Shown here: positions 8,345 to 63,313 of the stretch, piece by piece | Numbering within the stretch: the first letter of the stretch is position 1 | Layout of the letters: every line of letters begins with the position of its first letter | Assembly (NCBI GenBank): GCA_023664305.1 | Contig: JAMPFT010000005.1 | Coordinates: forward strand, 1-64,000 | Direction: 5' to 3' | DNA: 64,000 nt | Source: a bacterium | GTDB taxonomy: Bacteria; Bacillota; Clostridia; Lachnospirales; Lachnospiraceae | Notes under the pieces: model-generated | What the model was told of the DNA's origin: nothing | The model's input: the letters and a program-made list of their open reading frames with translations, nothing else | The model's database searches: none | Position numbers and translations under genes: made by a program

Positions 8345-8386
8345 GTGGCTTGTCAAATGTCAAGTTACAAACAGGAAAGTGATGAT

Positions 8387-20246: not shown

Positions 20247-20786
20247 ATGGCGGGAATGAAGAAACACATTGTAAGATTGAGCGATGATGAAGTCGCTATG
20301 CTGGAAAGAATGGCGGCCGATAAAAGCACACGGAAGGTTGTGACGCAAAGGTGCAGAATTTTACTTGACCTGGACGAAAACCATGGCGAACCTTTTTCGC
20401 ATAACCAGATCGCCGAGAAATACGCGGTCTCTCCCGCGACCGTTTCGGTCCTTGCCCGGTTTTACAACGAAAACGGGATTCATGCCGTCACTCGGACAGA
20501 CGAAGAAGGCAATCCGGTCAGAGCTGCCCGCAAAATAGACAAAAATGTGGAGGAGACCGTGGTCCGTCTGGCGAAAGGGCCTCTTCCGGAAGGACATTGC
20601 AGATGGACGATCAGACTGCTCGCGAAAGTAGCAAGCCGGGAACTGGAGATGGATATCAGCAGAGAGGCGGTGCGCAAGATATTGAAGAGGGCAAACTTTG
20701 ATCTGGCAGACACATTCATCGCATCGGAGTTGGTCAAACAAATCGTAATTTCTGATCAGAAAAAGGCATGCCGTTCAAACAGATAA
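20247..20786 (+). CDS. IS630-type helix-turn-helix protein, copy 2
   Basis: The start at 20247 is chosen by alignment with copy 1, where the upstream GGCGGAAAAACT is also shared; the frame extends further upstream without support. It encodes 179 residues with the same helix-turn-helix and no DDE domain. The 3' half is identical in bases to copy 1 as far as I can compare, and the 5' half is about 90% alike, which points to recent recombination or gene conversion. Its last codons overlap, in another frame, an upstream ATG of the AAA-ATPase gene, so the two are physically fused as a unit. Confidence 0.75.
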   Translation: MAGMKKHIVRLSDDEVAMLERMAADKSTRKVVTQRCRILLDLDENHGEPFSHNQIAEKYAVSPATVSVLARFYNENGIHAVTRTDEEGNPVRAARKIDKNVEETVVRLAKGPLPEGHCRWTIRLLAKVASRELEMDISREAVRKILKRANFDLADTFIASELVKQIVISDQKKACRSNR

Positions 20787-20803
20787 CAAAAGGAAGGTAT
20801 CCC

Positions 20804-22381: not shown

Positions 22382-22400
22382 AAAACTATGGCGGATGAAG
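22381..22400 (+). repeat. Short remnant of the HTH gene 5' region
   Basis: AAAAACTATGGCGG-ATGAAG here matches the start region of both HTH copies (17584-17605 and 20240-20261) apart from a 2-base gap. It lies right behind the AAA-ATPase stop, suggesting that a further HTH copy once began here. Confidence 0.5.
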
Positions 22401-22409
22401 GGACATAAG

Positions 22410-25410: not shown

Positions 25411-26406
25411 ATGTTAAATCACAAAGCAATTTTGGTGACAGGCGGGACAGGAAGCTTTGGGAAAGCGTTTACCAGATATGTGCTGGAGAATTATGATCCT
25501 AAAAAAATCATTATTTATTCGCGTGACGAATTTAAGCAGTTTATCATGCAGAATGAATTTAAAGAGTACAAGGATAAGCTTCGGTTTTTTATCGGGGATG
25601 TTCGGGATAAAGAGCGTTTGAAAAGGGCGTTCGAGGGAGTGGATTATGTGATTCACGCAGCGGCGCTGAAGCAGGTGCCTGCTTGTGAATACAATCCTGC
25701 GGAAGCGATCAAGACGAATATTAACGGCGCACAGAATGTCATTGACGCCGCACTGGATACAGGCGTTCGGAAGGTGGTGGCGTTATCTACGGATAAGGCA
25801 GTCAACCCGGTTAATCTTTACGGCGGGACAAAGCTTGTATCGGACAAGCTGTTTATCGCGGCTAACGCTTATGGCGGAAACAAGGATATCTGTTTTTCTA
25901 TTGTCAGGTACGGAAACGTTGCGGGCAGCCGCGGATCTGTCATTCCGTTTTTTAACAGCATCATTCGAAATGGCGGGACTGAGCTGCCGATTACGGATTA
26001 CAGAATGACGAGGTTCTGGATCAGCCTGAAGCAAGGGGTGGAGCTGGTCATCAAAGCGCTGGAGGAGGCGAAAGGCGGCGAGACCTTTATCTCTAAGATT
26101 CCGTCTTTTAAAATTACGGATTTGGCGGAGGCGATGCTCCCCGGCTGCAGCACGAAGGAAGTGGGTATCCGCGAGGGAGAGAAGCTGCATGAGATTATGG
26201 TAACGGTGGAGGATTCTTTGAATACCTACGAATACGATAAACATTTTATCGTATATCCGCAGATGGTGTGGAGCGAAAGCAGAAGAGCGGTTCCCACCGG
26301 AAAGAAAGTGGAGCCGGGATTTTCCTACAGCTCCGGTAATAATACGGAATGGCTCAGCGTAGAGGAGATCAGAGAGCTGTTGGAAACGGTCGCGTTGGAG
26401 AAGTAA
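25411..26406 (+). CDS. pseB: UDP-N-acetylglucosamine 4,6-dehydratase (5-inverting), PseB
   Basis: A 331-residue extended SDR enzyme, first step of pseudaminic acid synthesis: UDP-GlcNAc to UDP-4-keto-6-deoxy-L-AltNAc-type sugar. Visible are the NADP-binding TGGTGSFG (11-18), the YSRDEFKQ segment typical of PseB/FlaA1, STDKAVNPVNLYGGTK with the catalytic tyrosine and lysine, and the TRFWISL box. Length matches Helicobacter/Campylobacter PseB. It follows the co-polymerase by 28 bases and is closed by a terminator, so the pathway is not in one transcript: pseC lies beyond an oppositely oriented locus. Confidence 0.95.
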   Translation: MLNHKAILVTGGTGSFGKAFTRYVLENYDPKKIIIYSRDEFKQFIMQNEFKEYKDKLRFFIGDVRDKERLKRAFEGVDYVIHAAALKQVPACEYNPAEAIKTNINGAQNVIDAALDTGVRKVVALSTDKAVNPVNLYGGTKLVSDKLFIAANAYGGNKDICFSIVRYGNVAGSRGSVIPFFNSIIRNGGTELPITDYRMTRFWISLKQGVELVIKALEEAKGGETFISKIPSFKITDLAEAMLPGCSTKEVGIREGEKLHEIMVTVEDSLNTYEYDKHFIVYPQMVWSESRRAVPTGKKVEPGFSYSSGNNTEWLSVEEIRELLETVALEK

Positions 26407-28636: not shown

Positions 28637-28653
28637 TAGTATTTTCCCTTGTA
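28627..28653. promoter_or_regulatory. Candidate operator dyad TACAAG-N15-CTTGTA
   Basis: TACAAG (28627-28632) and CTTGTA (28648-28653) are perfect inverted half-sites overlapping the -35 box of the BlaI promoter. BlaI-type repressors recognise TACA/TGTA elements, so this may be the autoregulatory site and may also affect pseC. The 15-base gap is wider than in classic operators. Confidence 0.4.
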
Positions 28654-28741
28654 TCGGAAAAGGTTTCCTGTTAAACTGTTATTTAGAGAAAAAAGACAGC
28701 CTGTGTACAGGTGTGTCCGAAGCAGGAAGGCGGATTTGATT

Positions 28742-29935
28742 ATGGAAAAACCGGCAATTGCAGGCGGAATCCCGGTCAGGGAGAACCCGCTGTCTTATGG
28801 CAGACAATATATTGACGAGGAGGATATCCGGGCGGTAACAGAAACCCTGCGGGGGGATTATCTCACCGGCGGTCCAAAGATTGCGGAGCTGGAGCGGCGG
28901 CTCTGCGAGGTGACGGGAGCAAAATATGCGGTTGCCGTATCCAACGGCACGGCAGCGCTTCACCTTGCGGCGCTTACCGCCGGTTTCGGGGAGGGGGATG
29001 AGGTGATTGTCAGCTCTATCACCTTTGCGGCCTCCGCAAACTGCGTGCTTTACTGCGGCGCAAAGCCGGTTTTTGCGGATATCCGGCCAGACACTTATAA
29101 TATCGATCCTGATTCTGTCAGAAAGCTGATTACACCGCGTACCAAAGGAATTATCGCGGTAGATTTTACGGGACAGGCGGTGGAACACGACGCGCTGGAG
29201 GCAATCTGCAGGGAGCATAATCTGGTGCTGATCGAAGATGCCGCTCATGCCATCGGTACAAAGTATGAGGGGCAGCCGGTGGGCAGTATCGCGGATATGA
29301 CCTGTTTCAGCTTTCACCCGGTTAAGACGGTCACAGGCGGCGAGGGAGGCGCAGTCACTACAAATAACGAAAAAATGTACCGCAGACTGCTGCGCCTGCG
29401 TACCCACGGAATCACGCGTGACCGGGAGGAGATGGTTCATCCCACGGATGCGGGATGGTATAACGAGCAGGTTGAGCTTGGCTATAATTATCGGATCACA
29501 GATTTTCAGGCGGCGCTTCTGTTAAGTCAGCTGAATAAGCTGCCTCGGTTTGCGGCTCGCAGAAAAGAACTGGTAGAAAAATATAATCAGGTCTTTTCCG
29601 AAATACCTGAGCTGTTCGTTCAGAAAGAGATTCCGGAATCCGATACTACGAGACATCTGTATATTCTGCGGATTAAACTGGAGAAGCTGACCTGTGACAG
29701 AAGGCAGTTTTTCGACGCACTATGCGCGGAGGGAATCTGTCCGCAGGTTCATTATCTGCCGGTGTATTGGCATTCCTATTATGAAAAGCTGGGATACGAA
29801 AAAGGGCTTTGCCCCCAGGCGGAAAGGTATTATGAAGAGGTGTTGAGCATTCCTTTGTATTACGCGCTGACAGATGCGGATGCGGAGGATGTGATACATG
29901 CGGTAAGGAAAATTGTGGAATATTATCGAAGGTAA
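28742..29935 (+). CDS. pseC: UDP-4-amino-4,6-dideoxy-N-acetyl-L-altrosamine transaminase, PseC
   Basis: Start ATG 28742 (MEKPAIAGGIPVRENPL) with GGAAGGCGG upstream is preferred over the frame opening at 28649. The 397-residue PLP enzyme of the DegT/DnrJ/EryC1 group carries out the second step of pseudaminic acid synthesis. Visible are SNGTAALHLAAL, the IEDAAHAIG aspartate, and the PLP lysine in SFHPVKTVTGGEGG. The opening SYGRQYIDEEDI and FTGQAVEHD are characteristic of PseC. Separated from pseB by the divergent BlaI/BlaR1 locus. Confidence 0.93.
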   Translation: MEKPAIAGGIPVRENPLSYGRQYIDEEDIRAVTETLRGDYLTGGPKIAELERRLCEVTGAKYAVAVSNGTAALHLAALTAGFGEGDEVIVSSITFAASANCVLYCGAKPVFADIRPDTYNIDPDSVRKLITPRTKGIIAVDFTGQAVEHDALEAICREHNLVLIEDAAHAIGTKYEGQPVGSIADMTCFSFHPVKTVTGGEGGAVTTNNEKMYRRLLRLRTHGITRDREEMVHPTDAGWYNEQVELGYNYRITDFQAALLLSQLNKLPRFAARRKELVEKYNQVFSEIPELFVQKEIPESDTTRHLYILRIKLEKLTCDRRQFFDALCAEGICPQVHYLPVYWHSYYEKLGYEKGLCPQAERYYEEVLSIPLYYALTDADAEDVIHAVRKIVEYYRR

Positions 29936-34589: not shown

Positions 34590-34655
34590 TCCTTCGAATG
34601 CTTATCATGCTGCATTCGGAAACAGAAACAATTCATGAAAGGAACGGATACATCG

Positions 34656-35189
34656 ATGAAGGATTACACGGACCGGGAAACCGGCATTTATCTGCGCCTC
34701 ATGACGTATGAGGATACGGATTCCATTGTGGACTGGCGGAACAGCGACGCTGTGAGAAAGCGATTTATCTATCAGGAGCTTTTCACCAGAGAAGGGCATG
34801 AGAACTGGATCAGGACCATGGTGGAAACGGGGCGTGTGGTGCAGATGATGATCTGCAGCCTGGAATCGGACGCGCCGCTGGGAACTGTATATATCAGGGA
34901 TATCGACAGACAACATAACAAGGCGGAGTACGGTATCTTTATCGGAGAGCCTCAGGCCAGAGGCTGGGGGATCGGCACGGCGGCGGCCAGACTTATGCTG
35001 AAATACTGTTTTGAAGAGGAAAAACTGCACAGGGTATTCCTGCGTGTCTTCGCAGATAATCTGCAGGCCGTCCGCAGTTATGAAAAGGCGGGCTTTCAAA
35101 AGGAGGGGCTGCTTCGGGACGATGTCTGTATAGAAGGACGGTATTATGATATTGTATGGATGGCGGCGGTCAACCCGGAGAATTGCTGA
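34656..35189 (+). CDS. GNAT family N-acetyltransferase
   Basis: About 177 residues with a GNAT fold: N-terminal LRLMTYEDTDSIVDWRN, the acetyl-CoA loop EPQARGWGIGTAA, and the C-terminal FADNLQAVRSYEKAGFQ. Start at 34656 or 34635; both are in frame, with AAAGGAA best placed for 34656. The WRN box and length are shared with enzymes that acetylate amino-sugar nucleotides. It could acetylate dTDP-4-amino-4,6-dideoxygalactose made by WecE, since PseH is encoded elsewhere; this is inference. It could also be a RimJ/RimL-type protein acetyltransferase. Confidence 0.75.
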   Translation: MKDYTDRETGIYLRLMTYEDTDSIVDWRNSDAVRKRFIYQELFTREGHENWIRTMVETGRVVQMMICSLESDAPLGTVYIRDIDRQHNKAEYGIFIGEPQARGWGIGTAAARLMLKYCFEEEKLHRVFLRVFADNLQAVRSYEKAGFQKEGLLRDDVCIEGRYYDIVWMAAVNPENC

Positions 35190-38043: not shown

Positions 38044-38111
38044 GTTTTTGGCGCGGGCGGTTTGGGGCAAGGGAACATGAGTTCAGGAACTGTCGCGCAC
38101 AGGGAGACAGG

Positions 38112-39203
38112 ATGAATAACAGACAGGGGAAAAAGAAGCCCAGGATTTATGTGTGCCACACCTATTATCATGTGTATGTAACTTTTTTAAAGGAGCTTAG
38201 TCTTCCGAAAGAACAGCAGGGACAGGCAGTGTTGGTGCTCTCGTCTCTTTCCATCGATTTTGAGAATCTGAAGGAACGGGTGGAGAGTACGGGGCTGTTT
38301 CGCGAGGTAATTGAATTTGATGAAAAACGGGAGGAGTTTTTTCCGGAGCTTGCGCGGTATCGAAAGGATACGGGCAGCTTTTGGGGAAATCTGAGAAACC
38401 GTATCCGTTTTACCAGAAGATATGCCGAATTGGAGGCGCCTTATGTGCCTGTAGATTTCCGGGAATATGAGGATATCTATGTTTACTGTGACTCCGATCC
38501 CATCGGTTATTATTTGAATCAGAACAGAATCCGCTATCACGCGCTGGAAGACGGACTGAACTGCCTGAAAAATTTTGACGCGGCCCGATATGACAACAGA
38601 GGAAATTTTCAACTTAAAAAGATTCTTTCTATGTATTTTAATCTTATCTTTGTTCAGAACGGATACGGCAAATACTGTCTGGATATGGAAGTCAACGATA
38701 TTTCAGCAATTCGTTATCCCTGTCCGCGGTATATCGAGCAGCCCCGCCAGAAATTGGCGGACAGGCTGACGCAGGAAGACAGGCAGATTATCCTACGGGC
38801 ATTTATCCGGGACAAGGAGCGGCTGGAGCGGCAGATCGCAGAGATGGGCCGGGAGAGCGATAAGATTTTAATTCTTACGGATCCGTTGTGTACGCTGGAG
38901 GTAAGGGAGAAGATTTTTCGGGATATCATCAGAATGTATGAGCAGGAGGGGAGGATCTTTTTGAAACCGCATCCCAGAGACAGTCTGGATTATCGCAGGC
39001 TGTTTTCGGAGTATCCTCAGTTTGATGCGACGGTTCCCATGGAGATGCTGAATTTTTTTCCGGGGCTGCGCTTTAAAAAGGCGGTGGCTGTGTTGACGGA
39101 GATTAAGGCAATACGGTTTGCGGATGAAGTAGTGAGGCTGGGCGAGGATTTTATGGATGCCTACGAAGATCCGCTGATCCATCGGCAGAACGAACAGATA
39201 TAA
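38112..39203 (+). CDS. GT52/polysialyltransferase-like glycosyltransferase
   Basis: ATG at 38112 with GGGAGACAGG upstream is preferred over the frame opening at 38004. The 363-residue protein resembles the GT52 sialyltransferase superfamily: an opening strand IYVCHTYYHVYV, a middle LEDGLNC acidic loop and a C-terminal FLKPHPRDSLDY, the His-Pro motif of bacterial sialyl- and polysialyltransferases. As first gene of the operon that makes CMP-pseudaminic acid, it is the best candidate for the enzyme that transfers the nonulosonic acid. The family link is moderate, the substrate is inference. Confidence 0.65.
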   Translation: MNNRQGKKKPRIYVCHTYYHVYVTFLKELSLPKEQQGQAVLVLSSLSIDFENLKERVESTGLFREVIEFDEKREEFFPELARYRKDTGSFWGNLRNRIRFTRRYAELEAPYVPVDFREYEDIYVYCDSDPIGYYLNQNRIRYHALEDGLNCLKNFDAARYDNRGNFQLKKILSMYFNLIFVQNGYGKYCLDMEVNDISAIRYPCPRYIEQPRQKLADRLTQEDRQIILRAFIRDKERLERQIAEMGRESDKILILTDPLCTLEVREKIFRDIIRMYEQEGRIFLKPHPRDSLDYRRLFSEYPQFDATVPMEMLNFFPGLRFKKAVAVLTEIKAIRFADEVVRLGEDFMDAYEDPLIHRQNEQI

Positions 39204-39224: not shown

Positions 39225-40961
39225 ATGGGAAAGATATTAAAAAAGCTGAATCTTTTATTGGATAAAAAACAGAAGAGAACTATGGGCGGGCTGATAGTGC
39301 TGATGGTCATCGGCGCGGCGCTGCAGACCGCCGGCGTAGGAATGTTGGTGCAGGTGGTGACGGTGGTCATTGATCCCGGGGCGGCGGAGAAGAGCGGGAT
39401 CGTCAAAAGCGTTTACGAGATGCTTGGCTTCACGAACTACGGCAGCTTTTCCATCCTGGTGATGGCGATGCTGATTGCGGTCTTTGCGGTGAAAAATATT
39501 TTTCTCTTTGTGCAGCAGAAGCTGACCTATGCCTTTGTATATACCAATCAGTTCCGTACGTCGGAGCGGATGATGCGCAATTATCTGCGCCGGAGCTATG
39601 AGTTTTACCTCAATGCGGATACGGCGGTGGTGCAGAGGAGCATCACGGCGGATGTAAACAATATGTACGCGCTGATTTTGTCGTTGCTACAGTTGATGTC
39701 GGACTGTGTGGTATCGCTGTTCGTAGTGTGCTACTGTCTTTCGAAAAGCGGCGTTATGACGGTTCTGCTGGCGGTGGCGATGCTTCTTTTGATGTATGTG
39801 ATCAAGAAGGTCTTAAAGCCGGTGATGTATCGGGCGGGCAAGGATAATCAGGATTATTACAGCAGACTTTTTAAGTGGATATCCCAGACGGTGCAGGGAA
39901 TCAAGGAGGTAAAGGTAGCCTGCAAGGAGCAGTATTTTGTCAGCGAGTACCAAAAATGCGGGAAGGGTTATGTGGACGCGGTGCAAAGGTACAGTCTTTA
40001 CAATAATATTCCCAAGCTGCTGATTGAAACGGCCTGCGTTGCCGTCATGATGGGGTACATGATTTTTTTGACGGCGGCGGGAAAATCCACCGGGGATATG
40101 CTGGAGATTTTTAGTACTCTGGCGGCTGCGGCCTTTGTGCTGCTTCCCTGTGTCAATCGAATCAACAATCAGATCAATTCCATGGCATATTTCGAGCCGT
40201 TTTTTATGGGAGTCAGCGATAATCTTCAGGACGAGATCACGGGGGAAAAGGTGGATCTGTCTTTTGCGTCCGAGGATGAGGAAAAGCTGCCGGTGACAAA
40301 GTGTGTGGAACTGAAAAACATCACATATGCGTATCCCAACACGGAGAAGCTTATTTTTGACCATGCCGATATGACGATTCCGATCGGCGCGTCTGTGGGG
40401 ATTGTGGGAACTTCGGGAGCCGGGAAGAGTACCCTGGTGGATATTCTGCTGGGGCTGTTGGAGGTGAGAGAGGGAACGGTATATGCGGACGGCGTGGATG
40501 TACGGCAGAATTACAGAAGATGGCTGAAGAATATCGGATATATTCCCCAGATGATTTTCATGTTGGATGATACGATCCGTAGGAATGTGGCTTTCGGCGT
40601 GCCTGAGGATAGAGCCGACGAGGAACGGATCTGGGAGGTGCTGCGGGAAGCTCAGCTGGACGAATTTGTAAAGGGTCTTCCGGAGGGGCTGGATACCGGC
40701 ATCGGAGAGCGGGGAATCCGGCTCTCCGGCGGTCAGCGGCAGCGGATCGGTATCGCCAGGGCGTTGTATCATGACCCGGAGGTGCTGGTGCTGGATGAGG
40801 CGACCTCGGCGTTGGATAACGATACGGAGAAGGCGATCATGGAAGCGATCAACAGACTGCACGGCAGAAAGACGCTGATTATCATTGCACACAGGCTGCA
40901 GACCATTGAGCAGTGCGATATTGTGTACCGTGTGGAGGACGGCAAAGTGTATACGGAATGA
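39225..40961 (+). CDS. ABC transporter, fused permease and ATPase (PglK/MsbA-like flippase)
   Basis: A 578-residue half-transporter: six helices in the first 310 residues, then an ATPase with Walker A GTSGAGKST (near 400), signature LSGGQRQR, Walker B VLVLDEATSALD and the switch histidine IIIAHRL. Close in layout to PglK, which flips lipid-linked oligosaccharides. Its place between the GT52-like gene and pseF suggests that it exports a lipid-linked saccharide carrying nonulosonic acid. Works as a homodimer by family precedent. Confidence 0.9.
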   Translation: MGKILKKLNLLLDKKQKRTMGGLIVLMVIGAALQTAGVGMLVQVVTVVIDPGAAEKSGIVKSVYEMLGFTNYGSFSILVMAMLIAVFAVKNIFLFVQQKLTYAFVYTNQFRTSERMMRNYLRRSYEFYLNADTAVVQRSITADVNNMYALILSLLQLMSDCVVSLFVVCYCLSKSGVMTVLLAVAMLLLMYVIKKVLKPVMYRAGKDNQDYYSRLFKWISQTVQGIKEVKVACKEQYFVSEYQKCGKGYVDAVQRYSLYNNIPKLLIETACVAVMMGYMIFLTAAGKSTGDMLEIFSTLAAAAFVLLPCVNRINNQINSMAYFEPFFMGVSDNLQDEITGEKVDLSFASEDEEKLPVTKCVELKNITYAYPNTEKLIFDHADMTIPIGASVGIVGTSGAGKSTLVDILLGLLEVREGTVYADGVDVRQNYRRWLKNIGYIPQMIFMLDDTIRRNVAFGVPEDRADEERIWEVLREAQLDEFVKGLPEGLDTGIGERGIRLSGGQRQRIGIARALYHDPEVLVLDEATSALDNDTEKAIMEAINRLHGRKTLIIIAHRLQTIEQCDIVYRVEDGKVYTE

Positions 40962-41117: not shown

Positions 41118-41822
41118 ATGAAAAGGATAGCGATTATTACGGCACGGGGAGGCAGCAAGCGGATTCCCCGAAAGAATATCCGCGAGTTCTGCGGGAAGCC
41201 GATACTGGCGTATTCTGTCGAAGCTGCAGTGCAGTCGGGGCTGTTTGACGAAGTGATGGTTTCCACGGATGATGAGAGGATTGCAAAGATAGGGGAGCAG
41301 TATGGCGCGAAGGTGCCGTTTTTCCGAAGCGAACAGACGGCCAATGATTTTGCGACCACGAACGACGTCCTCTTAGAAGTGCTGGAAGAGTATGAAAAAC
41401 GGGGGATCTGTTTTGACGTGGGATGCTGCCTTTATCCGACGGCCCCCTTTGTGACGGTGGAAAAATTAAGATACGCGATGGAACAGCTGCTTGCTTCGGA
41501 TGCGGATACGCTGATTCCGGTAGTTTCCTTTTCCTATCCGCCCCAGCGGGCCATGGTGATCCGGGAGGGCAGGCTGGTATTTGAGTATCCGGAATATATG
41601 GATTCCAGATCCCAGGACCTGACGACTCATTATCATGACGCAGGACAGTTTTACTGCTTCAGGGTAGAGCCTTATAAGATTAACCGGAAGTTGATGCTGG
41701 GCAATATACTGCCGATGGTGATTCCGGAGACGGAGGTCCAGGATATCGACAACCTGACGGACTGGGAGATCGCGGAGATAAAATACCGGCTGATGAATAC
41801 CGAAACGGGAAATGAGAGGTGA
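41118..41822 (+). CDS. pseF: CMP-pseudaminic acid cytidylyltransferase, PseF
   Basis: 234 residues, the normal length. It activates pseudaminic acid with CTP as last step of the pathway. Visible are the nucleotide-binding ARGGSKRIPRKN (9-20), KPILAYSVEAA, VSTDDERIA, and LYPTAPFV; SRSQDLTTHYHDAGQFY near 155 is typical of PseF rather than NeuA. The stop overlaps the GTG start of the next gene (GTGA), so translation is coupled to the FkbH-like protein, binding the two functionally. Confidence 0.93.
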   Translation: MKRIAIITARGGSKRIPRKNIREFCGKPILAYSVEAAVQSGLFDEVMVSTDDERIAKIGEQYGAKVPFFRSEQTANDFATTNDVLLEVLEEYEKRGICFDVGCCLYPTAPFVTVEKLRYAMEQLLASDADTLIPVVSFSYPPQRAMVIREGRLVFEYPEYMDSRSQDLTTHYHDAGQFYCFRVEPYKINRKLMLGNILPMVIPETEVQDIDNLTDWEIAEIKYRLMNTETGNER

Positions 41823-43513
41823 AGGACTTGCCGAGGATTGCGCTTCTGTCGAACGTCAATATGAATATGGTGATCCGTCTGCTACAGCGGGAGGTGACAG
41901 TCTGGCAGACAGAAGGATACGGAAACGAGTTGGGTATTCTTATGAACCCCGGCTCCTCCTATGCAGAGTTTCAACCGGAATATACGTTTCTGGTTATAGA
42001 TCTTATGGAGTTTTTGGAACACGATCCGGAACCGGAAACTGCAAAACAAAGGATAGACGCGTGGTTTGACAGCCTGGAAAGTGTGTTGAAGCCGGAGACC
42101 GTTTATTATGTCTCAGATGTCTGGCTCTGGGGAACGGAACTTTCCGTTTTCTCTGACACGGGACGGAAGAGTCTTTTGGAGGGACTGTGGCAGAGCCGGC
42201 TGGACCGGCTGAGAAAGGTTCGCGGTAATGTGCGGATCCTGCCTTACCGTCAGATCCCGGAGAGGCTGGGTGAGGAAAATGCTTTTTCTCTTAAAATGTG
42301 GTATCTGGGGAAGATTCTTTTGAGCAATGAGGCGCAGAAGAGGCTGGCGGGATTGATCCTGGATCAGCTTAGGATCGAGGAAAGAATCCCGAAAAAGGTA
42401 CTGCTGTTGGATCTGGATAACACGCTGTGGGGCGGGCTTGCGGGGGAAAACGATTTGACGCCTGTGGAGCTTTCCGAGGAGCACACTGGTCTTGCCTATA
42501 AGAATCTGCAGCGGGTGCTGTTTCGGATGGAGAACCAGGGTGTTCTTCTGGCAGTGGTTTCGAAAAACAATGAACAAGACGCCATGGAGATTCTGGAAAA
42601 GCATCCGCATATGGTGTTGAGGCCGCAGGATTTTGCCGCCATGCGGATTAATTGGAAGCCGAAACATGAGAATATCCGGGAAATTGCCGAAGAGCTGAAC
42701 CTTGGTACGGATTCCTTTGTGTTTTGGGACGATAGTCCCTCCGAAAGGCAGCTTGTCAGAGAGATGCTGCCGGAGGTGGAGGTTCCGGATTTTCCGGCGA
42801 ATCCGGAGGAACTTGCGTCGGCCATGGCCGAGGTGTACCGCCTTTTTTTTCAGAAACCGACGGTGACGGAGGAGGACAGGGAAAAGACGGCGCAGTATGT
42901 ATCCAACGCCGCCAGAAAACAGCTGGAGCAAAGCGCCGGCAGTTTTGAGGAATATCTGGAGAGCCTGCAGATCGTTGTGACACGGGTGGAACCCGGGGAA
43001 CATGTGGAGCGGCTGACGCAGCTTGTGAACAAGACCAATCAGTTTAATCTGACCACAAAACGTTATACCCGGGGACAGATCGAGATGCTGCTTCAGGACA
43101 GCCGCAGGCAGGTCTATCTGTACGCGGTGACGGATCGGTTCGGCGACAGCGGAATCGTAGCGGCGGTTGTGGCGGAGCTTAACGCCGATACGGCGGTGTT
43201 GGAGGAATTTGTGATGAGCTGCAGAGTCATGGGGAAAAATATTGAATATGCGATTCTGGACGATGTGGAAAGGGATCTGACAGACAGAGGCGTAAAAAGG
43301 ATCCAGGGAATTTATATTCCCACAGAAAAGAATAAGCCGGTGGAAAAGCTGTACGGGCAGTTGGGTTACAGGCGGACGGAAAGCGGGAGAGAACAGGAAA
43401 ACCCGGTGCAGTCCGCGGGACAGGCGGCGGTTTATGAGCTTTTGACGGGAGAGAAGCCTGAAAGAAGATATCATGTGTGTTTTCGTCATAGAGCGGCCGG
43501 AACCATATTTTGA
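41819..43513 (+). CDS. FkbH-like HAD-IIIC enzyme (probable glyceryl-ACP synthase)
   Basis: GTG start overlapping pseF by 4 bases. The 564-residue protein has three parts: an N-terminal SGNH-like region (about 1-190), a HAD-IIIC phosphatase-like core with LLLDLDNTLWGG (nucleophile Asp, about 198-209), VVSKNNEQDA and FWDDSPSERQ, and a C-terminal GNAT-like part with VNKTNQFNLTTKRY and EFVMSCRVMGKNIE. This is the long form of FkbH proteins. In polyketide and tetronate pathways they turn 1,3-bisphosphoglycerate into glyceryl-S-ACP. The acyl carrier protein follows after 28 bases. Finding this pair inside a pseudaminic acid cassette is unusual; the product in this cell is inference. Confidence 0.88.
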   Translation: MKDLPRIALLSNVNMNMVIRLLQREVTVWQTEGYGNELGILMNPGSSYAEFQPEYTFLVIDLMEFLEHDPEPETAKQRIDAWFDSLESVLKPETVYYVSDVWLWGTELSVFSDTGRKSLLEGLWQSRLDRLRKVRGNVRILPYRQIPERLGEENAFSLKMWYLGKILLSNEAQKRLAGLILDQLRIEERIPKKVLLLDLDNTLWGGLAGENDLTPVELSEEHTGLAYKNLQRVLFRMENQGVLLAVVSKNNEQDAMEILEKHPHMVLRPQDFAAMRINWKPKHENIREIAEELNLGTDSFVFWDDSPSERQLVREMLPEVEVPDFPANPEELASAMAEVYRLFFQKPTVTEEDREKTAQYVSNAARKQLEQSAGSFEEYLESLQIVVTRVEPGEHVERLTQLVNKTNQFNLTTKRYTRGQIEMLLQDSRRQVYLYAVTDRFGDSGIVAAVVAELNADTAVLEEFVMSCRVMGKNIEYAILDDVERDLTDRGVKRIQGIYIPTEKNKPVEKLYGQLGYRRTESGREQENPVQSAGQAAVYELLTGEKPERRYHVCFRHRAAGTIF

Positions 43514-43541
43514 GATCCGTGTAAGGTGGAGAGGAGCGAGA

Positions 43542-43775
43542 ATGGAGGAAAAAATAATCGCGCTGATTGAGGAGGCATTGAATGTGCCTGCGGGAACAGT
43601 CACAGAAGATACCGCTGCGGCGGATGTGGAGCAGTGGGATTCCCTGGCCCATGTGATGATCATCGGGGAACTGGAGGAAAAGCTGGGGATTTCCATTCCG
43701 TTGGAGGAAGCGGTGGAATTGACAGGGATGAAGGATTTGTTGGAAGCCTGCAGGAGATATGGGGAAAAGGAATGA
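43542..43775 (+). CDS. Acyl carrier protein (dedicated)
   Basis: 77 residues from ATG 43542 after GGAGAGGAGCG. Four-helix ACP pattern with the phosphopantetheine serine in EQWDSLAHV (about residue 38) and acidic helices typical of carrier proteins. Its stop overlaps the start of pseH (ATGA), and it directly follows the FkbH-like gene. It is therefore not the fatty-acid ACP but a carrier for the FkbH product, and the natural donor for the next enzyme, a GNAT. Confidence 0.9.
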   Translation: MEEKIIALIEEALNVPAGTVTEDTAAADVEQWDSLAHVMIIGELEEKLGISIPLEEAVELTGMKDLLEACRRYGEKE

Positions 43776-44317
43776 GTGTAACGCTGAGAGAGCTTCGGGA
43801 AGAGGATCTGGAGAGGGTCATGCGATGGCGCATGGATCCTGATATTACAAGATATATGAACACGGATCCGAAACTGACCCTGGAGGGACAGAAAAAATGG
43901 TTTGCTGCAGTACAGGGAAACAGGGATGTCCGCTACTGGATGATATTGGTGGAGGGGGAGCCTGCGGGGGTCATCAATCTGACAGGTCTTGAGAATCCTG
44001 AAGGTGACCTGGGCTGGGCCTATTATATGGGAGAAAAGCGCCTGCGCAGCATAAAGACCGCGCTGTCCCTGGAGATGAGTCTGTACGACTATGTGTTTGA
44101 CGTGCTGAAAAAGCGGGCGGTATACGGGGATGTTTTCAGTCTGAACCGGGGAGTAATCCAGCTTCATAAGCTTTGCGGCTGTGAGGTCGTGGAGGAGAAA
44201 AAAGGGCATGTCAGCAAGGGCGGGGTCAGTTACGATGTGACTTTTCTGCGGATGACGGACAGGCTTTGGCAGCGTGTCCGTGCCGGAAAAAATTACGAAA
44301 AAATAGAGTTTGTCTGA
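43772..44317 (+). CDS. pseH: PseH-like GNAT acyltransferase
   Basis: ATG 43772 (MSVTLRELREEDLERVMRWR), coupled to the ACP stop by a 4-base overlap. 181 residues. The WRMDPDITRYMNTDP region and the AYYMGEKRLRS loop match PseH, which acylates the 4-amino group of UDP-4-amino-4,6-dideoxy-L-AltNAc (the N-7 acyl group of pseudaminic acid). Normal PseH uses acetyl-CoA. Because the gene is fused in translation to a dedicated ACP, this one may take a glyceryl or other acyl group from ACP; that is inference. The usual Q/RxxGxG/A loop is not clear (MGEKRLRSIKTA). Confidence 0.78.
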   Translation: MSVTLRELREEDLERVMRWRMDPDITRYMNTDPKLTLEGQKKWFAAVQGNRDVRYWMILVEGEPAGVINLTGLENPEGDLGWAYYMGEKRLRSIKTALSLEMSLYDYVFDVLKKRAVYGDVFSLNRGVIQLHKLCGCEVVEEKKGHVSKGGVSYDVTFLRMTDRLWQRVRAGKNYEKIEFV

Positions 44318-44353
44318 ACCCGGGAGAATAACCGGAGCCGGAAAGGAAAGAGC

Positions 44354-45418
44354 ATGAACAAGCAGATTAAAATCGGAAATCATCTCATCGGAGAAGATTC
44401 GCCCACATTTATTGTGGCGGAGATGTCGGCCAATCATAACATGGATTTTGACAGAGCTGTGGCTATTATGAAAGCCGCGAAGGATGCGGGAGCGGATGCG
44501 GTCAAGATCCAGACCTATACGGCGGATACCATTACCCTGGACTGTGACGATCCCTGCTTTCAGATCACTCAGGGGACTCTTTGGGACGGCATGACCCTTC
44601 ACAGGCTGTATGAAACCGCTTATACGCCATGGGAATGGCAGCCGAAGCTGCAGGAGATTGCAAAGGAGCTGGGATTGGAGTTCTTCTCTTCTCCTTTTGA
44701 CTTGACGGCGGTGGACTTTCTGGAGGAGATGAACGTGCCTGCGTATAAGATCGCCTCTTTTGAGATCAACGATATTCCGTTGATCAGAAAGGTTGCCCGG
44801 TTGGGGAAACCGATCATTTTTGCCACCGGTATCGCCCACTTGTCGGATATTGAGCTTGCGCTGCAGACATGCAGGGAAGAGGGTAATGAGGATGTGGCGG
44901 TCCTGAAATGCACGTCCGCGTATCCGGCACCCTATGAGGATGTCAACCTGAGGACGATTCCTTCCCTGGCGGAAACCTTTGACTGTATTGCCGGTCTGTC
45001 CGACCATACGATGGGAAGCGCCGTTGCCGGGGCGGCGGTGGCACTGGGAGCCAAAATAGTAGAAAAGCATCTGACGTTACGGAGAGCCGACGGCGGCGCG
45101 GATTCCGCGTTTTCCATGGAGCCGGAGGAATTTAAGGAGATGGCGGACAATATCCGAAAAATTGAGCTTGCCTTGGGAAGGGTTACCTATGAACTGTCTC
45201 CCAAAGCGGCAAGGGAGAGGGAGCATTCCCGGTCATTATTCGTGGCTGAGGATATGAAGGCGGGAGAAATTTTTACGCCGGAAAATCTCCGTTCCGTGCG
45301 TCCCGGCAATGGGCTGCACACGAAATATTACGAGGAAATTCTGGGAAAACGGATCGCCAGGGACGCGAAGAAGGGGACTCCCATGAGCTGGGATCTTGTA
45401 CAGTCCTGCAAGGACTGA
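44354..45418 (+). CDS. pseI: Pseudaminic acid synthase, PseI
   Basis: 354 residues of the NeuB family: an N-terminal TIM barrel with EMSANHNMDFDRA, AVKIQTYTADTITLD, FFSSPFDLTAVDFLE and KIASFEIND, and a C-terminal antifreeze-like SAF domain from about residue 290 (AGEIFTPENLRSVRPGNGL). It condenses 2,4-diacylamido-2,4,6-trideoxy-L-altrose with phosphoenolpyruvate. The bulky acyl group proposed here would sit at N-4 of that substrate. ATG preceded by GGAAAGGA. Confidence 0.94.
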   Translation: MNKQIKIGNHLIGEDSPTFIVAEMSANHNMDFDRAVAIMKAAKDAGADAVKIQTYTADTITLDCDDPCFQITQGTLWDGMTLHRLYETAYTPWEWQPKLQEIAKELGLEFFSSPFDLTAVDFLEEMNVPAYKIASFEINDIPLIRKVARLGKPIIFATGIAHLSDIELALQTCREEGNEDVAVLKCTSAYPAPYEDVNLRTIPSLAETFDCIAGLSDHTMGSAVAGAAVALGAKIVEKHLTLRRADGGADSAFSMEPEEFKEMADNIRKIELALGRVTYELSPKAAREREHSRSLFVAEDMKAGEIFTPENLRSVRPGNGLHTKYYEEILGKRIARDAKKGTPMSWDLVQSCKD

Positions 45419-45557: not shown

Positions 45558-46688
45558 ATGTATATTTTCCGGGCGGACGGAAACGCAAGAACGGGAGCGG
45601 GGCATATCATGCGCTGTATGACGATAGCTGACGCGCTGGCGCGGCTGGAAGGCGGCAAGGAGGAGATTGTTTTTTTCTGCGGGGAAGAGCAGGCCGTTCG
45701 AATGGCGTCATCCGGAGGCTTTTGGGCCAAACGGCTGGAAGCGCGGGAGCCGTGGACTGAAGCCGAGCTGACGGAATGGGAGCGTATCCTGAGATCGGAA
45801 GAAGGGGATCAATGGAGATTCCGAGGATCTTTTGGCGATAACGGTTTTGAATCCGATGCAGCATACCCAGGGAAGAAAAATGTGATTCTCGCGGACAGCT
45901 ATCTGGTGACGGACCTTTATTTGGAGAAACTTGAAAAATATGGCGCGGTGGCGCTTTTGGACGATTTCGGCAGACATCGTTTTCCGGTAGACTGTATTAT
46001 TAACTATAACGCACCTGCTCAAAGAACCGTCTATAGGGATCTTTATAAGGGCTGCCGTACCCGTCTGGCTGTGGGCCGTGAATATATTCCTGTCCGGGCG
46101 CAGTTCGTGGGACGGGAATACAGGGTCCGCCGGGAGGTGAGAAATGTGTTGATCACCACCGGAGGCGGAGATATTGACAATATCGCCCGCAGGATCTTTG
46201 AGCGGATTGACCGGAAAGACAGAGAATACTATGTGGTTGTCGGCAGATTCAGTCCTCATCTTGCAGAAATGAAGGGCTTGGAGAGGGAGCGGCGTAATCT
46301 GCATGTCCTGTATGATGTTACGGCAATGGGCGAGTTGATGGAGAAATGCGACGTAGCTGTCACAGCGGGAGGGACCACCGTTTATGAGCTTGCAGCGGTG
46401 GGCGTGCCCCTGATCTGCTTTTCTTACGCGGAGAATCAGGAGGTATTGACGGAATATATCGGGACAATGGGCGTCGCGGGATATGCGGGAGCTTATCACA
46501 GAGAGCCGGAGGAGACTCTGAACCGGCTGGAGGAGTTGTTTGACGGGCTAAACGGCAGCAATGAGCTGCGGCGGAGCTTTTACGAGGCAGAGCGGCGGCT
46601 GGCCGACGGCAGAGGGGCCGAAAGGCTTGCCAGGGTTTTGTGGGAGCTTAAAAGAGGCATCGAGCGGAAAGACGGAGAGGACGCATGA
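45558..46688 (+). CDS. pseG: UDP-2,4-diacylamido-2,4,6-trideoxy-altropyranose hydrolase, PseG
   Basis: 376 residues, GT-B fold related to MurG. The opening FRADGNARTGAGHIMRCMTIADAL carries the invariant histidine that activates water to cut UDP from the sugar. C-terminal VTAGGTTVYELAAVGVPLICFSYAENQ is the UDP-binding part. Longer than Campylobacter PseG (about 274) by an insert around residues 45-110. With this gene all six Pse enzymes are present. Confidence 0.9.
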   Translation: MYIFRADGNARTGAGHIMRCMTIADALARLEGGKEEIVFFCGEEQAVRMASSGGFWAKRLEAREPWTEAELTEWERILRSEEGDQWRFRGSFGDNGFESDAAYPGKKNVILADSYLVTDLYLEKLEKYGAVALLDDFGRHRFPVDCIINYNAPAQRTVYRDLYKGCRTRLAVGREYIPVRAQFVGREYRVRREVRNVLITTGGGDIDNIARRIFERIDRKDREYYVVVGRFSPHLAEMKGLERERRNLHVLYDVTAMGELMEKCDVAVTAGGTTVYELAAVGVPLICFSYAENQEVLTEYIGTMGVAGYAGAYHREPEETLNRLEELFDGLNGSNELRRSFYEAERRLADGRGAERLARVLWELKRGIERKDGEDA

Positions 46689-47536
46689 CGGAGAAGAAGC
46701 GGAGAGAGAAAATCGGATTAATGCTGATATCTGCTTTGTTGTTTTGCATTTTGCTTTTTCTTTTTGGCGGTAACGGAACGGCTAAGGAAAAGCACACAGT
46801 CCAGATCGTTGTCTTTGGGGACAGCGCCTATGGAAACGTTCGGGATGAGTCGGCAATTTCGGCACAGCTGGGCAGACTTTTGGGGAAGACGGCTTACAAT
46901 GCCGGATTCGGCGGCACCTGCGTCGGTCGGATTTCGTGGGATACGCGTCTTGATTTTTCCGGAAGCTCTCTTTCCATGGTGGCGCTGGCGAAAGCTGTCT
47001 ACGCGGATGATTTCAGCGTGCAGCAGACGATCAAGCCGGTTCCGGATATCACGTTCTATTTCGGGGAGACGATTGAAGGGCTGACGGCGATTGATTTTTC
47101 CGCGGTGGAGGCGGTGCTGATCGGCCACGGCAGCAACGATTATACCACGGGGATCCCTTTGGAGAACAAGGGGGACGCCATGGACGAATACACCTTTGCG
47201 GGGGCGCTGCGAAAGTCGGTGACGATGCTGAGAAAGGCGAATCCCGGGATGCGGATTGTTCTGTTGACGCCTACCTACAGCTGGCTGCTGGGCCGCAATA
47301 TGACCTGCGAGGAATATGACACAGGGGAAGGCATTTTGGAGGATTATGTGCTGAAGGAGCTGGAAGTGGCCGAGGAACTGGATGTGGAGGTGATCGATCT
47401 GTATCACGATTTTTTTCCCCATGAGAAATGGGAAGACTGGGAGCTTTACACCATGGACGGTCTTCACCCGAACGAGGCAGGAAGAGCGTGGATTGCGGAA
47501 AAAATAGCAGAATATCTGGGAGGAGAGGCAAAATGA
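46685..47536 (+). CDS. Membrane-anchored SGNH hydrolase (paralog 2, intact)
   Basis: Starts at the ATGA overlap with pseG. 283 residues: a signal anchor at 9-28, GDSAYGN with the serine (about 42), GHGSNDY for the oxyanion hole and DGLHPNEAG for the Asp-His pair. Shares the YNAGFGG segment with the 36421 paralog. Position in the operon between pseG and the GtrII-like gene suggests that it edits or places acyl groups on the exported glycan. Confidence 0.82.
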   Translation: MTEKKRREKIGLMLISALLFCILLFLFGGNGTAKEKHTVQIVVFGDSAYGNVRDESAISAQLGRLLGKTAYNAGFGGTCVGRISWDTRLDFSGSSLSMVALAKAVYADDFSVQQTIKPVPDITFYFGETIEGLTAIDFSAVEAVLIGHGSNDYTTGIPLENKGDAMDEYTFAGALRKSVTMLRKANPGMRIVLLTPTYSWLLGRNMTCEEYDTGEGILEDYVLKELEVAEELDVEVIDLYHDFFPHEKWEDWELYTMDGLHPNEAGRAWIAEKIAEYLGGEAK

Positions 47537-50134: not shown

Positions 50135-51256
50135 ATGATTAACTTTAATGTGCCGCCCTGCGGGGAAAAGGCGATGGAGTATATCCGGGAATGCGTAAAA
50201 AACCAGAAGATCTGCGGAGACGGCGCATATACCAAAAAGTGCAGCGAGTGGTTTGAAAAGAGGACGGGCACCGCAAAGTGCCTGATGACCACCTCCTGTA
50301 CCCATGCGACGGAGCTGGCGGCGCTGTTGTGTGATATTCAGCCCGGGGACGAGGTTATCATGCCGGCCTATACCTTTGTTTCTACGGCGGACGCCTTTGT
50401 GCTGAGGGGGGCGGTGCCCGTATTTGTGGATATCAGGCCGGATACCATGAATATTGACGAGAAGCTCATAGAGGATGCGGTGACGGACAAAACGCGGGCT
50501 ATCGTCCCCGTCCATTATGCGGGCGTAGCCTGCGAGATGGATGTGATTACGGATATCGCAAAGCGGTACGGCCTGAAGGTCATCGAGGACGCGGCTCAGG
50601 GCGTTATGGCCTCCTATAAGGGGAGAGCGCTGGGAACCATAGGCGATTTCGGCGCGTACAGCTTTCATGAGACCAAGAATTACAGTATGGGAGAGGGCGG
50701 CGCATTGCTGATCCGCGATCAGAAGGATGTGGAGAACGCGGAGATCATCCGGGAAAAGGGGACGAACCGAAGTAAGTTTTACAGGGGGCAGATCGATAAA
50801 TATACTTGGGTGAATTACGGTTCTTCCTATCTGCCCAGCGATATGAACGCGGCTTACCTCTACGCGCAGCTGGAGATCGCCGATGAAATCAACGAGGCCA
50901 GGCTTTCGATCTGGAACCGGTATTATGAGAGACTGTTTCCGCTGGCAGAGGCGGGGAAGATCGAACTGCCCTTCGTGCCGGAGGGCTGTGAGCACAATGC
51001 GCACATGTTTTATATCAAGGCCGGGGATATCGAAGAGAGAACGGCACGGATCGCGCAGCTGAAGGAGAACGGTATACTGTCCGTTTTCCATTATATACCG
51101 CTGCATACGGCGCCGGCAGGATTGAAATTCGGCCGCTTCCACGGGGAGGACAAATATACTACGGCGGAGAGCGAGAGGCTGATGCGTCTGCCGATGTATT
51201 ACGGGCTGACTTCGGAGGAAGTGGACTATATCTGTGACACGATCATGAGATTTTAA
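50135..51256 (+). CDS. wecE: dTDP-4-amino-4,6-dideoxygalactose transaminase, WecE
   Basis: 373 residues, strikingly close to enterobacterial WecE/RffA over the whole length: NVPPCGEKAMEYI, SCTHATELAALL, VIMPAYTFVSTADAFVLRG, PVHYAGVACEMD, and the PLP lysine in SFHETKNYSMGEGG. It converts dTDP-4-keto-6-deoxyglucose, the product of RmlA and RmlB encoded at 61-63 kb, into dTDP-Fuc4N. N-acetylation would give dTDP-Fuc4NAc. Ribosome site AAGGAGG is strong. Confidence 0.93.
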   Translation: MINFNVPPCGEKAMEYIRECVKNQKICGDGAYTKKCSEWFEKRTGTAKCLMTTSCTHATELAALLCDIQPGDEVIMPAYTFVSTADAFVLRGAVPVFVDIRPDTMNIDEKLIEDAVTDKTRAIVPVHYAGVACEMDVITDIAKRYGLKVIEDAAQGVMASYKGRALGTIGDFGAYSFHETKNYSMGEGGALLIRDQKDVENAEIIREKGTNRSKFYRGQIDKYTWVNYGSSYLPSDMNAAYLYAQLEIADEINEARLSIWNRYYERLFPLAEAGKIELPFVPEGCEHNAHMFYIKAGDIEERTARIAQLKENGILSVFHYIPLHTAPAGLKFGRFHGEDKYTTAESERLMRLPMYYGLTSEEVDYICDTIMRF

Positions 51257-61273: not shown

Positions 61274-62356
61274 ATGAGAACTTATCTGGTGACAGGGGGA
61301 GCGGGGTTTATCGGCTCCAACTACATTCACTACATGTTCAGAAAATACGGCGGCGATATCCGCATTATCAACGTGGATGCGCTGACTTATGCGGGCAATC
61401 TGGAGAATCTGAAGGATATTGAAAACCGTCCGAATTATTCTTTTATCAGGGCGGACGTCTGCGACAAGGCGGCGATTTCTGCGATCTTTGCAGGGAACGA
61501 TATCGACAGGGTAGTTCACTTTGCGGCGGAGAGCCATGTGGACCGGAGTATCCGTGAGCCGGAGGTCTTTGTCAGAACCAATGTGCTGGGGACGGCGGTT
61601 ATGCTTAACTGTGCCAGGGAAGCGTGGGAGCTGCCGGACGGAACATATCCGGCGGACAAGAAATTTCTTCATGTTTCCACGGACGAGGTGTACGGGTCCC
61701 TGCCTGAGGATGACAGCGCCTTTTTTTACGAGACAACGCCTTATGCGCCGCACAGCCCTTATTCGGCCAGCAAGGCGGGATCGGACATGCTGGTGAAGGC
61801 ATATATGGATACTTACCGTTTCCCGGCGAATATCACCAACTGCTCCAACAATTACGGACCTTACCAGTTCCCGGAGAAGCTGATTCCGCTGATTATCAAC
61901 AATGCGCTTCAGGGGAAAAAGCTTCCGGTTTACGGCGACGGAAAGAACGTCCGGGACTGGCTTTTTGTGGAGGATCATGCAAAAGCAATCGACATGGTAC
62001 AGGAGCAGGGACGGCTGTTCGAAACCTACAATATCGGCGGGCACAATGAGAAGCAGAACATAGAGATCATTCAGACGATTCTGGAGGTTTTACAGGAGAT
62101 GCTGCCGGAGGGGGATCCCAGAAAGGCTTATGTCAACGGGGATCTGATCACCTATGTGGAGGACCGCAAGGGACACGACAGAAGATACGCCATCGCGCCG
62201 GATAAGATCAGGAGGGAGATCGGATGGGAGCCGGAGACGATGTTCCGGGAGGGAATCCGCAAAACAATCCGTTGGTATTTTGAGAACGAGGAATGGATGA
62301 AAAATATGACCAGCGGCGATTACCAGAAATATTACAGTGAGATGTACGAAAAATAA
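61274..62356 (+). CDS. rmlB: dTDP-glucose 4,6-dehydratase, RmlB
   Basis: 360 residues. NAD-binding GGAGFIGSNYIHYM (8-21), FAAESHVDRSI, STDEVYGSL, catalytic tyrosine and lysine in SPYSASKAGSD, and the sugar-binding NNYGPYQFPEKLIPL are all present. It turns dTDP-glucose into dTDP-4-keto-6-deoxyglucose, which feeds WecE (50135) and any rhamnose pathway encoded elsewhere. First gene of a short operon with rmlA and a GH25 gene. Confidence 0.96.
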   Translation: MRTYLVTGGAGFIGSNYIHYMFRKYGGDIRIINVDALTYAGNLENLKDIENRPNYSFIRADVCDKAAISAIFAGNDIDRVVHFAAESHVDRSIREPEVFVRTNVLGTAVMLNCAREAWELPDGTYPADKKFLHVSTDEVYGSLPEDDSAFFYETTPYAPHSPYSASKAGSDMLVKAYMDTYRFPANITNCSNNYGPYQFPEKLIPLIINNALQGKKLPVYGDGKNVRDWLFVEDHAKAIDMVQEQGRLFETYNIGGHNEKQNIEIIQTILEVLQEMLPEGDPRKAYVNGDLITYVEDRKGHDRRYAIAPDKIRREIGWEPETMFREGIRKTIRWYFENEEWMKNMTSGDYQKYYSEMYEK

Positions 62357-62443: not shown

Positions 62444-63313
62444 ATGAAGGGAATTATTCTGGCCGGGGGCTCGGGAACAAGGCTGTATCCGTTGACAAAA
62501 GCGATTTCCAAGCAGATTATGCCGGTATATGACAAGCCGATGATTTATTATCCGCTTTCCATCCTGATGCTGGCGGGTATCCGGGAAGTGCTGGTTATTT
62601 CCACACCCAGAGATCTGCCGGTATTTGAGGAGCTTTTGGGCGACGGTCATCAGCTGGGAATGCAGTTTTCCTACGCCGTGCAGGAAAGCCCCAGAGGGTT
62701 GGCGGACGCTTTTATCATCGGGGCGGATTTTATCGGCGACGACAGAGTGGCGCTGGTGTTGGGCGACAATATTTTTTACGGACAGAGCTTTTCCAGGGTG
62801 CTGAGAGAGGTGGCGCTGCGGGAAAAGGGAGCGACTATTTTCGGCTATTATGTGCGGGATCCCAGAGAGTACGGCGTTGTAGAGTTTGACGAAAGCGGAA
62901 AGGCTGTTTCCATCGAGGAGAAGCCGGAAAATCCCAAAAGTAACTACGCGGTGCCAGGCCTGTATTTTTACGATAACGACGTGGTGGAGATCGCCCGGAA
63001 CGTGAAGCCCTCCGCCAGGGGCGAGATCGAGATCACGGCGGTAAACAACGAATATCTGCGCAGGGGGGATCTTTATGTGGAAACCCTGGGGAGAGGCTTT
63101 GCATGGCTTGACACGGGCAACCATGACGCGTTATTGGATGCCTCGGATTTTGTGGCGGCTTTCCAGAAGAGGCAGGGACTTTATATCTCCTGTATCGAGG
63201 AGATTGCCTATAAGAGGGGATTTATCGACAAGGAACAGCTGATCAGACTGGCGGAGCCGCTGATGAAAACAAATTACGGAAAATATTTGGTTGAGGTAGC
63301 AAATGGACTCTAA
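62444..63313 (+). CDS. rmlA: Glucose-1-phosphate thymidylyltransferase, RmlA
   Basis: 289 residues, the standard length. [17 protein letters not shown] (8-24), [18 protein letters not shown] and the [20 protein letters not shown] segment are diagnostic. It makes dTDP-glucose from glucose-1-phosphate and dTTP. AAAGGAGGAG precedes the ATG. rmlC and rmlD are not in the window, so in this locus the product is most simply explained by WecE. The last 11 bases overlap the next gene. Confidence 0.96.

Follow-up and report, generated by a model that had tools for sequence, protein, structure and literature searches.

Pseudaminic acid is a surface sugar that resembles sialic acid. In its synthesis by Helicobacter and Campylobacter, the acyltransferase PseH depends on acetyl-coenzyme A (acetyl-CoA). 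PseH acts on the N-4 amine (PMC6388019). The S-layer glycan of Tannerella forsythia carries a different form, Pse5Am7Gra, with a glyceroyl group at C-7 (PMC6388019; PMC6120980), for which the responsible gene was called elusive (PMC6120980) and the basis a major challenge (PMC6388019). In T. forsythia ATCC 43037, the pse cluster is broken up by hypothetical genes (PMC6120980). A di-O-methylglyceric form is found on Campylobacter jejuni flagellin, and the flagellar glycosylation locus of this species includes an fkbH-domain gene, cj1302; the published phenotype is tied to Cj1295 and not to cj1302, and an attachment site was not found in the text consulted (PMC3068675; PMC7099621). FkbH together with a stand-alone acyl carrier protein (ACP) has been described as yielding glyceryl-ACP (PMC7489565). 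Here we analyse a stretch of 64,000 nucleotides from the genome of a gut bacterium of the Lachnospiraceae (GCA_023664305.1, contig JAMPFT010000005.1; hereafter the window), in which genes for an FkbH-like protein and an ACP stand in a pseudaminic acid (pse) cassette directly before a PseH-like GNAT. Judged by its gene content and its recurrence, this locus is a real, conserved and carrier-protein-linked variant of pseudaminic acid synthesis. We give a probability of roughly 55% to the reading that a carrier-bound donor is used in the cassette for the N-acylation of pseudaminic acid, FkbH forming glyceryl-ACP and PseH transferring the acyl group to give 7-N-glyceroyl pseudaminic acid. The pse genes of the window are as follows.

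25411..26406, + strand: pseB, UDP-GlcNAc 4,6-dehydratase (inverting); NCBIfam PseB 541.7 bits, cut-off 407.75
28649..29935, + strand: pseC, aminotransferase; NCBIfam PseC 467.4 bits, cut-off 423.5
41118..41822, + strand: pseF, CMP-pseudaminic acid synthetase; NCBIfam PseF 286 bits, cut-off 206
41819..43513, + strand: fkbH, HAD-IIIC phosphatase half followed by a C-terminal part with GNAT fold, putative glyceryl-ACP synthase; FkbH (TIGR01686) 309.5 bits, cut-off 146.65
43542..43775, + strand: stand-alone ACP with DSL serine; PF00550 30.1 bits, cut-off 20.8
43772..44317, + strand: PseH-like GNAT, CoA loop eroded to R-S-I-K-T-A, putative N-acyltransferase dependent on acyl-ACP; TIGR03585 86.7 bits, below the cut-off of 93.1
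44354..45418, + strand: pseI, pseudaminic acid synthase; NCBIfam PseI 495 bits, cut-off 340
45558..46688, + strand: pseG, UDP-sugar hydrolase; NCBIfam PseG 159.3 bits, cut-off 153.55

An earlier note on this DNA had claimed the order pseF, fkbH, acp, pseH-like GNAT and pseI with two 4-base overlaps, and coordinates, DNA letters and family models all bear this out; fkbH starts on the stop of pseF in GTGA (41819-41822), and pseH starts on the stop of acp in ATGA (43772-43775). PseB, PseC, PseG, PseI and PseF all score above their NCBIfam cut-offs, and since pseG lies downstream and pseB and pseC lie upstream of the cassette, the window holds the whole pseudaminic acid pathway. The TTG start of pseC comes from the list of open reading frames and, as the model match begins at residue 48, the real start may be later. 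Besides its TIGR01686 score, the FkbH protein has the HAD D-x-D motif (D198, D200), and by fold comparison its residues 385-545 resemble GNAT structures, while the FkbH-linked GNAT has a GNAT fold like that of solved PseH. The source genome (3.58 Mb, 44 contigs) encodes one FkbH, three PF00550 proteins and one phosphopantetheinyl transferase (PF01648). The assignment of the window ACP to PF00550 agrees with its score, its DSL serine and the presence of this transferase, and the conserved serine and the single transferase speak for carrier chemistry. The locus resembles the tetronate and methoxymalonyl-ACP pathways in an FkbH above cut-off, an adjoining ACP, the HAD aspartates and a Ser-Cys-Arg motif, but differs in that its neighbours build a nonulosonic acid. 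A polyketide or tetronate cluster was rejected, as no polyketide synthase or FabH-like gene was found among the window proteins scanned, some open reading frames being outside that scan.

The earlier note had also proposed a genome search for fkbH-acp-pseH neighbourhoods, and this search showed that the cassette recurs. In a family sample of 200 genomes, 42 had an FkbH above cut-off and 45 a PseI. Wider DNA, in some cases ending at contig edges, was taken for all FkbH matches above cut-off and for all but two (G146 and G092) of the 45 PseI loci, and six of these loci, the window among them, combine FkbH, ACP, a PseH of the window type and PseI. The PseH alignment of these six was used in a scan (one genome per species) that gave 110 relatives, the best 80 of which were kept as loci; two of the 80 (L174 and L177) share one genome, and the set is biased toward FkbH-linked PseH because the scan used two short patterns from that type. 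Both FkbH and ACP were present in 70 of the 80 scan loci, 67 of these also having PseI; the order FkbH-ACP-PseH-PseI was preserved in 60 of the 80, and the ACP lay at most 60 bases from the PseH frame in 63 of the 72 loci measured. Among the ten loci without FkbH, L215 ends at a contig edge, L190 has a fragment of FkbH at a contig edge, L195, L181 and L208 have FkbH elsewhere in the genome and L217 has two FkbH on other contigs, while for L205, L214, L216 and L220 FkbH was not found anywhere in the genome.

A second sample, which was not chosen by FkbH, comprised 392 genomes spread evenly over the order to which genome G612 belongs; shared genomes show that this order includes the family of the window, and several genomes of the sample also occur among the 80 scan loci. 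FkbH exceeded its cut-off in 69 of the 392 genomes, and a PseH model (A2) gave 15 genomes above 120 bits, 12 of them above 230 bits. FkbH was located at most 3 kb from PseH in 11 of these 12 genomes, versus 69/392 genomes with FkbH overall (Fisher p = 2.6e-8, kinship ignored). Chance adjacency of fkbH, acp and pseH was rejected, as the order recurs across the loci and in the even sample. One record with this cassette (L196) is titled Muribaculum sp.; its relatives fall in the order of the window, so it is probably mislabelled or a mixed assembly.

The consensus by which GNAT proteins bind the pyrophosphate of CoA is Gln/Arg-x-x-Gly-x-Gly/Ala (PMC4964394), and the loop of the window PseH-like GNAT, R-S-I-K-T-A, departs from it. 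Among 80 clade sequences, which represent 76 distinct loci (L064/L154, L065/L211, L066/L197 and L068/L199 are identical pairs), the first glycine was kept in three, the second in five and both in none; this count takes in four loci without FkbH (L181, L190, L195 and L215) and leaves out 26 of 113 GNATs that gave no pattern match. Likewise, all 11 FkbH-linked PseH of the even sample lack the glycine pair. Five further relatives (L214, L216, L217, L220 and L275) read R-G-x-G-x-A/G in a gap-free alignment, keeping the pair in 5/5, and neither FkbH nor ACP was found near them; L328 of the even sample (G998, 124 bits) keeps both glycines in R-G-K-G-I-F, with no FkbH, ACP or AMP-ligase-type neighbour seen. 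The cassette differs from the Helicobacter and Campylobacter pathway in the FkbH and dedicated ACP that precede PseH and in the loss of the glycines that bind CoA pyrophosphate.

In the mechanism that we propose, FkbH would start from a three-carbon acid that carries phosphate, which in described relatives is 1,3-bisphosphoglycerate, strip the phosphate and load glyceryl onto the neighbouring ACP. The PseH-like GNAT with its eroded loop would dock the ACP and pass the acyl group to the UDP-sugar that PseB and PseC produce, at its 4-amino group. The N-4 amine of the UDP-sugar becomes N-7 of the nine-carbon sugar. PseG, PseI and PseF would then lead to CMP-pseudaminic acid with that acyl group on N-7, probably Pse5Ac7Gra. 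We infer the glyceryl identity of the acyl group, its direct transfer from ACP to sugar and the N-7 position, glyceroyl being favoured because of the described FkbH chemistry and the known 7-N-glyceroyl group of Tannerella. The likeness to Tannerella lies in the C-7 glyceroyl and in a position decided by the PseH step (PMC6388019; PMC6120980), and we predict that the route is shared.

The claim of the earlier note that acylation is carrier-dependent with PseH as the transferase gains support from the linkage, from a cassette with a separately recruited FkbH (L065/L211, below) and from the erosion of the loop, and is not proven. Its alternative, that the C-terminal GNAT part of FkbH acylates the sugar, is disfavoured, since this part is also conserved in FkbH proteins whose loci show no PseH-like GNAT. 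D198, D200, D304, D305 and S467-C468-R469 are invariant in 110 FkbH proteins from pse and other contexts, and the invariance of the C-terminal Ser-Cys-Arg across these contexts fits a general carrier-loading role.

Several observations weigh against carrier-dependent transfer by PseH. Five of the 80 clade members, including that of Acetatifactor muris DSM 23669 (L145), keep a glycine at motif position 4 and satisfy the formal consensus, and the ACP-linked L122 and L127 as well as L281, which adjoins an AMP-ligase, retain loop glycines. In the PseH tree, loop and ACP linkage shift together in about three of six independent pairs and never oppositely, which is not significant (sign test p ~0.25); here ACP linkage was coded by hand (L211 and L281 as yes, one GNAT each of L280 and L209 as no), L145 was scored intact and L276 was beyond the distance limit. 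The intact-loop clade is nested within the eroded clade (support 92/84), so that the direction of loop change is unsettled; on this topology, a loss of FkbH-ACP may have been accompanied by a regain of the loop. The window GNAT itself scores below the PseH cut-off (86.7 versus 93.1 bits), and a second window GNAT scores as high. Finally, PseH of H. pylori and AAC(2')-Ic of M. tuberculosis use acetyl-CoA despite atypical loops.

Such enzymes lend weight to a different account, which we consider unlikely, in which the GNAT is an ordinary acetyl-CoA-dependent PseH with a drifted loop and the glyceryl-ACP made by FkbH and ACP serves another step, e.g., O-acylation of the same glycan by an MBOAT or SGNH protein. 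An MBOAT is often present in FkbH loci outside pse (within L067-L105; 21/43 FkbH loci, window counted), where it possibly performs a Dlt-like O-acylation using glyceryl-ACP. The window also has an MBOAT (2748-4160) and an AlgX-like SGNH gene (7217-8344), both separated from fkbH by more than 33 kb, and a further SGNH gene follows pseG, its type being found in 38/70 FkbH-ACP loci:

46685..47536, + strand: SGNH/GDSL protein, start overlapping the pseG stop, possible partner in O-acylation or as an esterase; Pfam Lipase_GDSL_2 60 bits

However, loop drift in an acetyl-CoA enzyme leaves unexplained the loss of the glycine pair in the ACP-linked PseH clade, the placement of the ACP directly before PseH and the occurrence of the same loop beside another acyl supply in three loci without a complete FkbH (L325-L327, below). 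Moreover, within the fetched stretch, neither an MBOAT nor an SGNH protein was matched at the cassettes of L199, L207 and L211.

The tree of FkbH points to a largely dedicated partner of this PseH type. In a quick tree of 66 FkbH, 26 of the 29 pse-labelled proteins group in a single clade (29 rows, SH-aLRT 100), which also contains L089, L097 and L289; L289 is the relocated FkbH of the L181 genome. The pse-labelled proteins outside this clade are L070, L280 and L065. In L065 (= L211), an FkbH from an otherwise non-pse clade is paired with an eroded-loop PseH, which on phylogenetic grounds is a second, separate pairing of this PseH type with FkbH; from its placement in the tree, pse-linked FkbH is mostly dedicated, yet replaceable. 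In L280, FkbH-ACP lies nearer to a second GNAT with a glycine-free loop, and the PseI-linked PseH there keeps its glycines. Other arrangements around FkbH were also seen. In L067, L070, L077, L082, L087 and L093, genes for a MaoC-like dehydratase and an SDR-type protein come after FkbH-ACP and might convert glyceryl-ACP to another acyl, and in G710 and G751, FkbH domains are embedded in open frames longer than 3,000 residues, as though they were parts of large synthases.

Not all eroded-loop PseH have FkbH as a neighbour. Loci L325 (G797), L326 (G884) and L327 (G791) of the even sample lack the glycine pair, and an AMP-ligase and LuxE adjoin PseH. LuxC was confirmed beside PseH in L325 and L326, and L327 has a LuxC-sized gene; the genome of the latter also contains a piece of FkbH, broken off by the contig end, about 12 kb from PseH. 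With our own model, a carrier-like protein was called in L325 and L327 and none was found in L326, and the small carrier-like proteins of L276, L281, L325 and L327 had no Pfam match. The PseH of L205 and L208 keep neither loop glycine; that of L205 adjoins an ACP-like protein (called from our own model and a DSV serine), an AMP-ligase, LuxE, LuxC and a FabG-like reductase, and that of L208 a FabG-like reductase. The gene sets of L205, L325 and L327 are like those of the flagellin glycosylation islands of Aeromonas and Enterobacteriaceae, where ACP, FabG, AMP-ligase, LuxE and LuxC genes, for a carrier protein and acyl activation, lie beside or among pse genes; those islands differ in that the passages available mention no FkbH, and their supply chemistry is another one (PMC7874193; PMC4875605). 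We tentatively propose, at slightly under even odds, a PseH subfamily without the CoA loop that would be fed by exchangeable carrier modules, mostly FkbH-ACP and elsewhere AMP-ligase/LuxE/LuxC with a small carrier; the module would set the N-7 acid, and the FkbH branch would give the 7-N-glyceroyl form.

Among the intact-loop relatives, that of L214 is fused to a MaoC hydratase, and those of L216 and L217 adjoin one, an arrangement that would fit a hydroxyacyl-CoA donor and that counts in favour of non-acetyl transfer among relatives of the window PseH. The 3-hydroxybutanoyl transferase FdhC (5ktc), which acts on an amino sugar, was solved with coenzyme A and so differs from the proposed enzyme in having a CoA-bound donor. 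In L181 (1037-1996) and L190 (583-1461), where FkbH is missing, a domain of about 200 residues with no named family runs in frame into the ACP before PseH. In L195, PseF and PseH are fused.

The acyl group could also be altered on the carrier, since in L198 and L203 (about 8001-9010) a VOC (Glyoxalase_4) domain is joined to the FkbH-linked PseH in one protein, and a VOC protein is present in 7/80 scan loci; that of L211 is nearest to methylmalonyl-CoA epimerase, below the cut-off of that model. We regard it as distinctly unlikely that an ACP-bound acyl is epimerised, methylated or reduced before or after transfer, giving e.g., dimethylglyceroyl or lactoyl. Two methyltransferases each in L199/L068 and in L211/L065 speak for such a step. 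The L199 cassette, from Mobilisporobacter senegalensis DSM 26537, sits after the gene of a 608 aa MptE-like protein and two genes read by eye, and we take these upstream genes to be fliS, flagellin and Maf. This setting, together with the two methyltransferases, brings to mind the di-O-methylglyceric form on C. jejuni flagellin (PMC3068675), itself a point in favour of alteration. In the window and most of the 80 scan loci, by contrast, there was no match to the modifying-gene models tried, and plain glyceroyl is the simplest assumption there.

It must also be considered which of the two window GNATs is PseH, as those at 43772-44317 and 34635-35189 score alike on the PseH model (87.9 and 86.5 bits). 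If the GNAT at 34635-35189 were the true PseH, the FkbH-linked GNAT might acylate another amino sugar, e.g., dTDP-Fuc4N, for which the window holds candidate genes:

50135-51256: WecE, 623 bits, above cut-off
61274-62356: RmlB
62444-63313: nucleotidyltransferase

The two PseH-like genes of L209 are in line with this, but we find it very improbable. In genomes G209, G210 and G213, the FkbH-linked GNAT scores 118, 100 and 111 bits and the next-best match to the PseH model 46, 33 and 27 bits, so that it is the sole good PseH match of the genome, and it lies in pseI cassettes; clade members in G209, G210, G211, G212 and G213 all exceed the PseH cut-off, at 95-118 bits. Furthermore, the GNAT at 34635-35189 has an intact loop, R-G-W-G-I-G, and L130 and L123, the nearest two of the homologues found for it, both lie close to a WecE-like DegT gene. 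Because of these neighbours and the WecE and RmlB of the window, this GNAT probably acetylates Fuc4N in a dTDP-Fuc4NAc branch of the same glycan, leaving the FkbH-linked GNAT as the candidate PseH.

Two genes directly upstream of the cassette are candidates for the use of its product.

38106..39203, + strand: GT52 / polysialyltransferase-like glycosyltransferase that may transfer the sugar; above cut-off with Pfam PF07922 (39 bits) and PF07388 (33 bits)
39225..40961, + strand: ABC transporter, candidate glycan exporter; best model NCBIfam PglK with 352 bits, far below the 1000 required by that model; ABC_tran (Pfam) 102 bits

A SIR2-like gene (14888-17386), an AAA-ATPase/PD-DExK-like gene (20768-22381) and a PIN-like gene (22368-23708) sit among the glycan genes of the window, possibly as a defence insert.

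Among the papers searched, we found none that joins FkbH to PseH; FkbH and pseudaminic acid both occur in one of them (PMC7099621). Flagella, S-layers and other surface glycans carry pseudaminic acid, whose acyl groups vary by strain. The cassette offers a testable gene pair and a donor for the C-7 glyceroyl group, and the module may account for the unusual decorations that some bacteria add to pseudaminic acid. If the proposed route is true, a sugar N-acyltransferase would have exchanged CoA for ACP, and gut bacteria would use FkbH chemistry outside polyketides.

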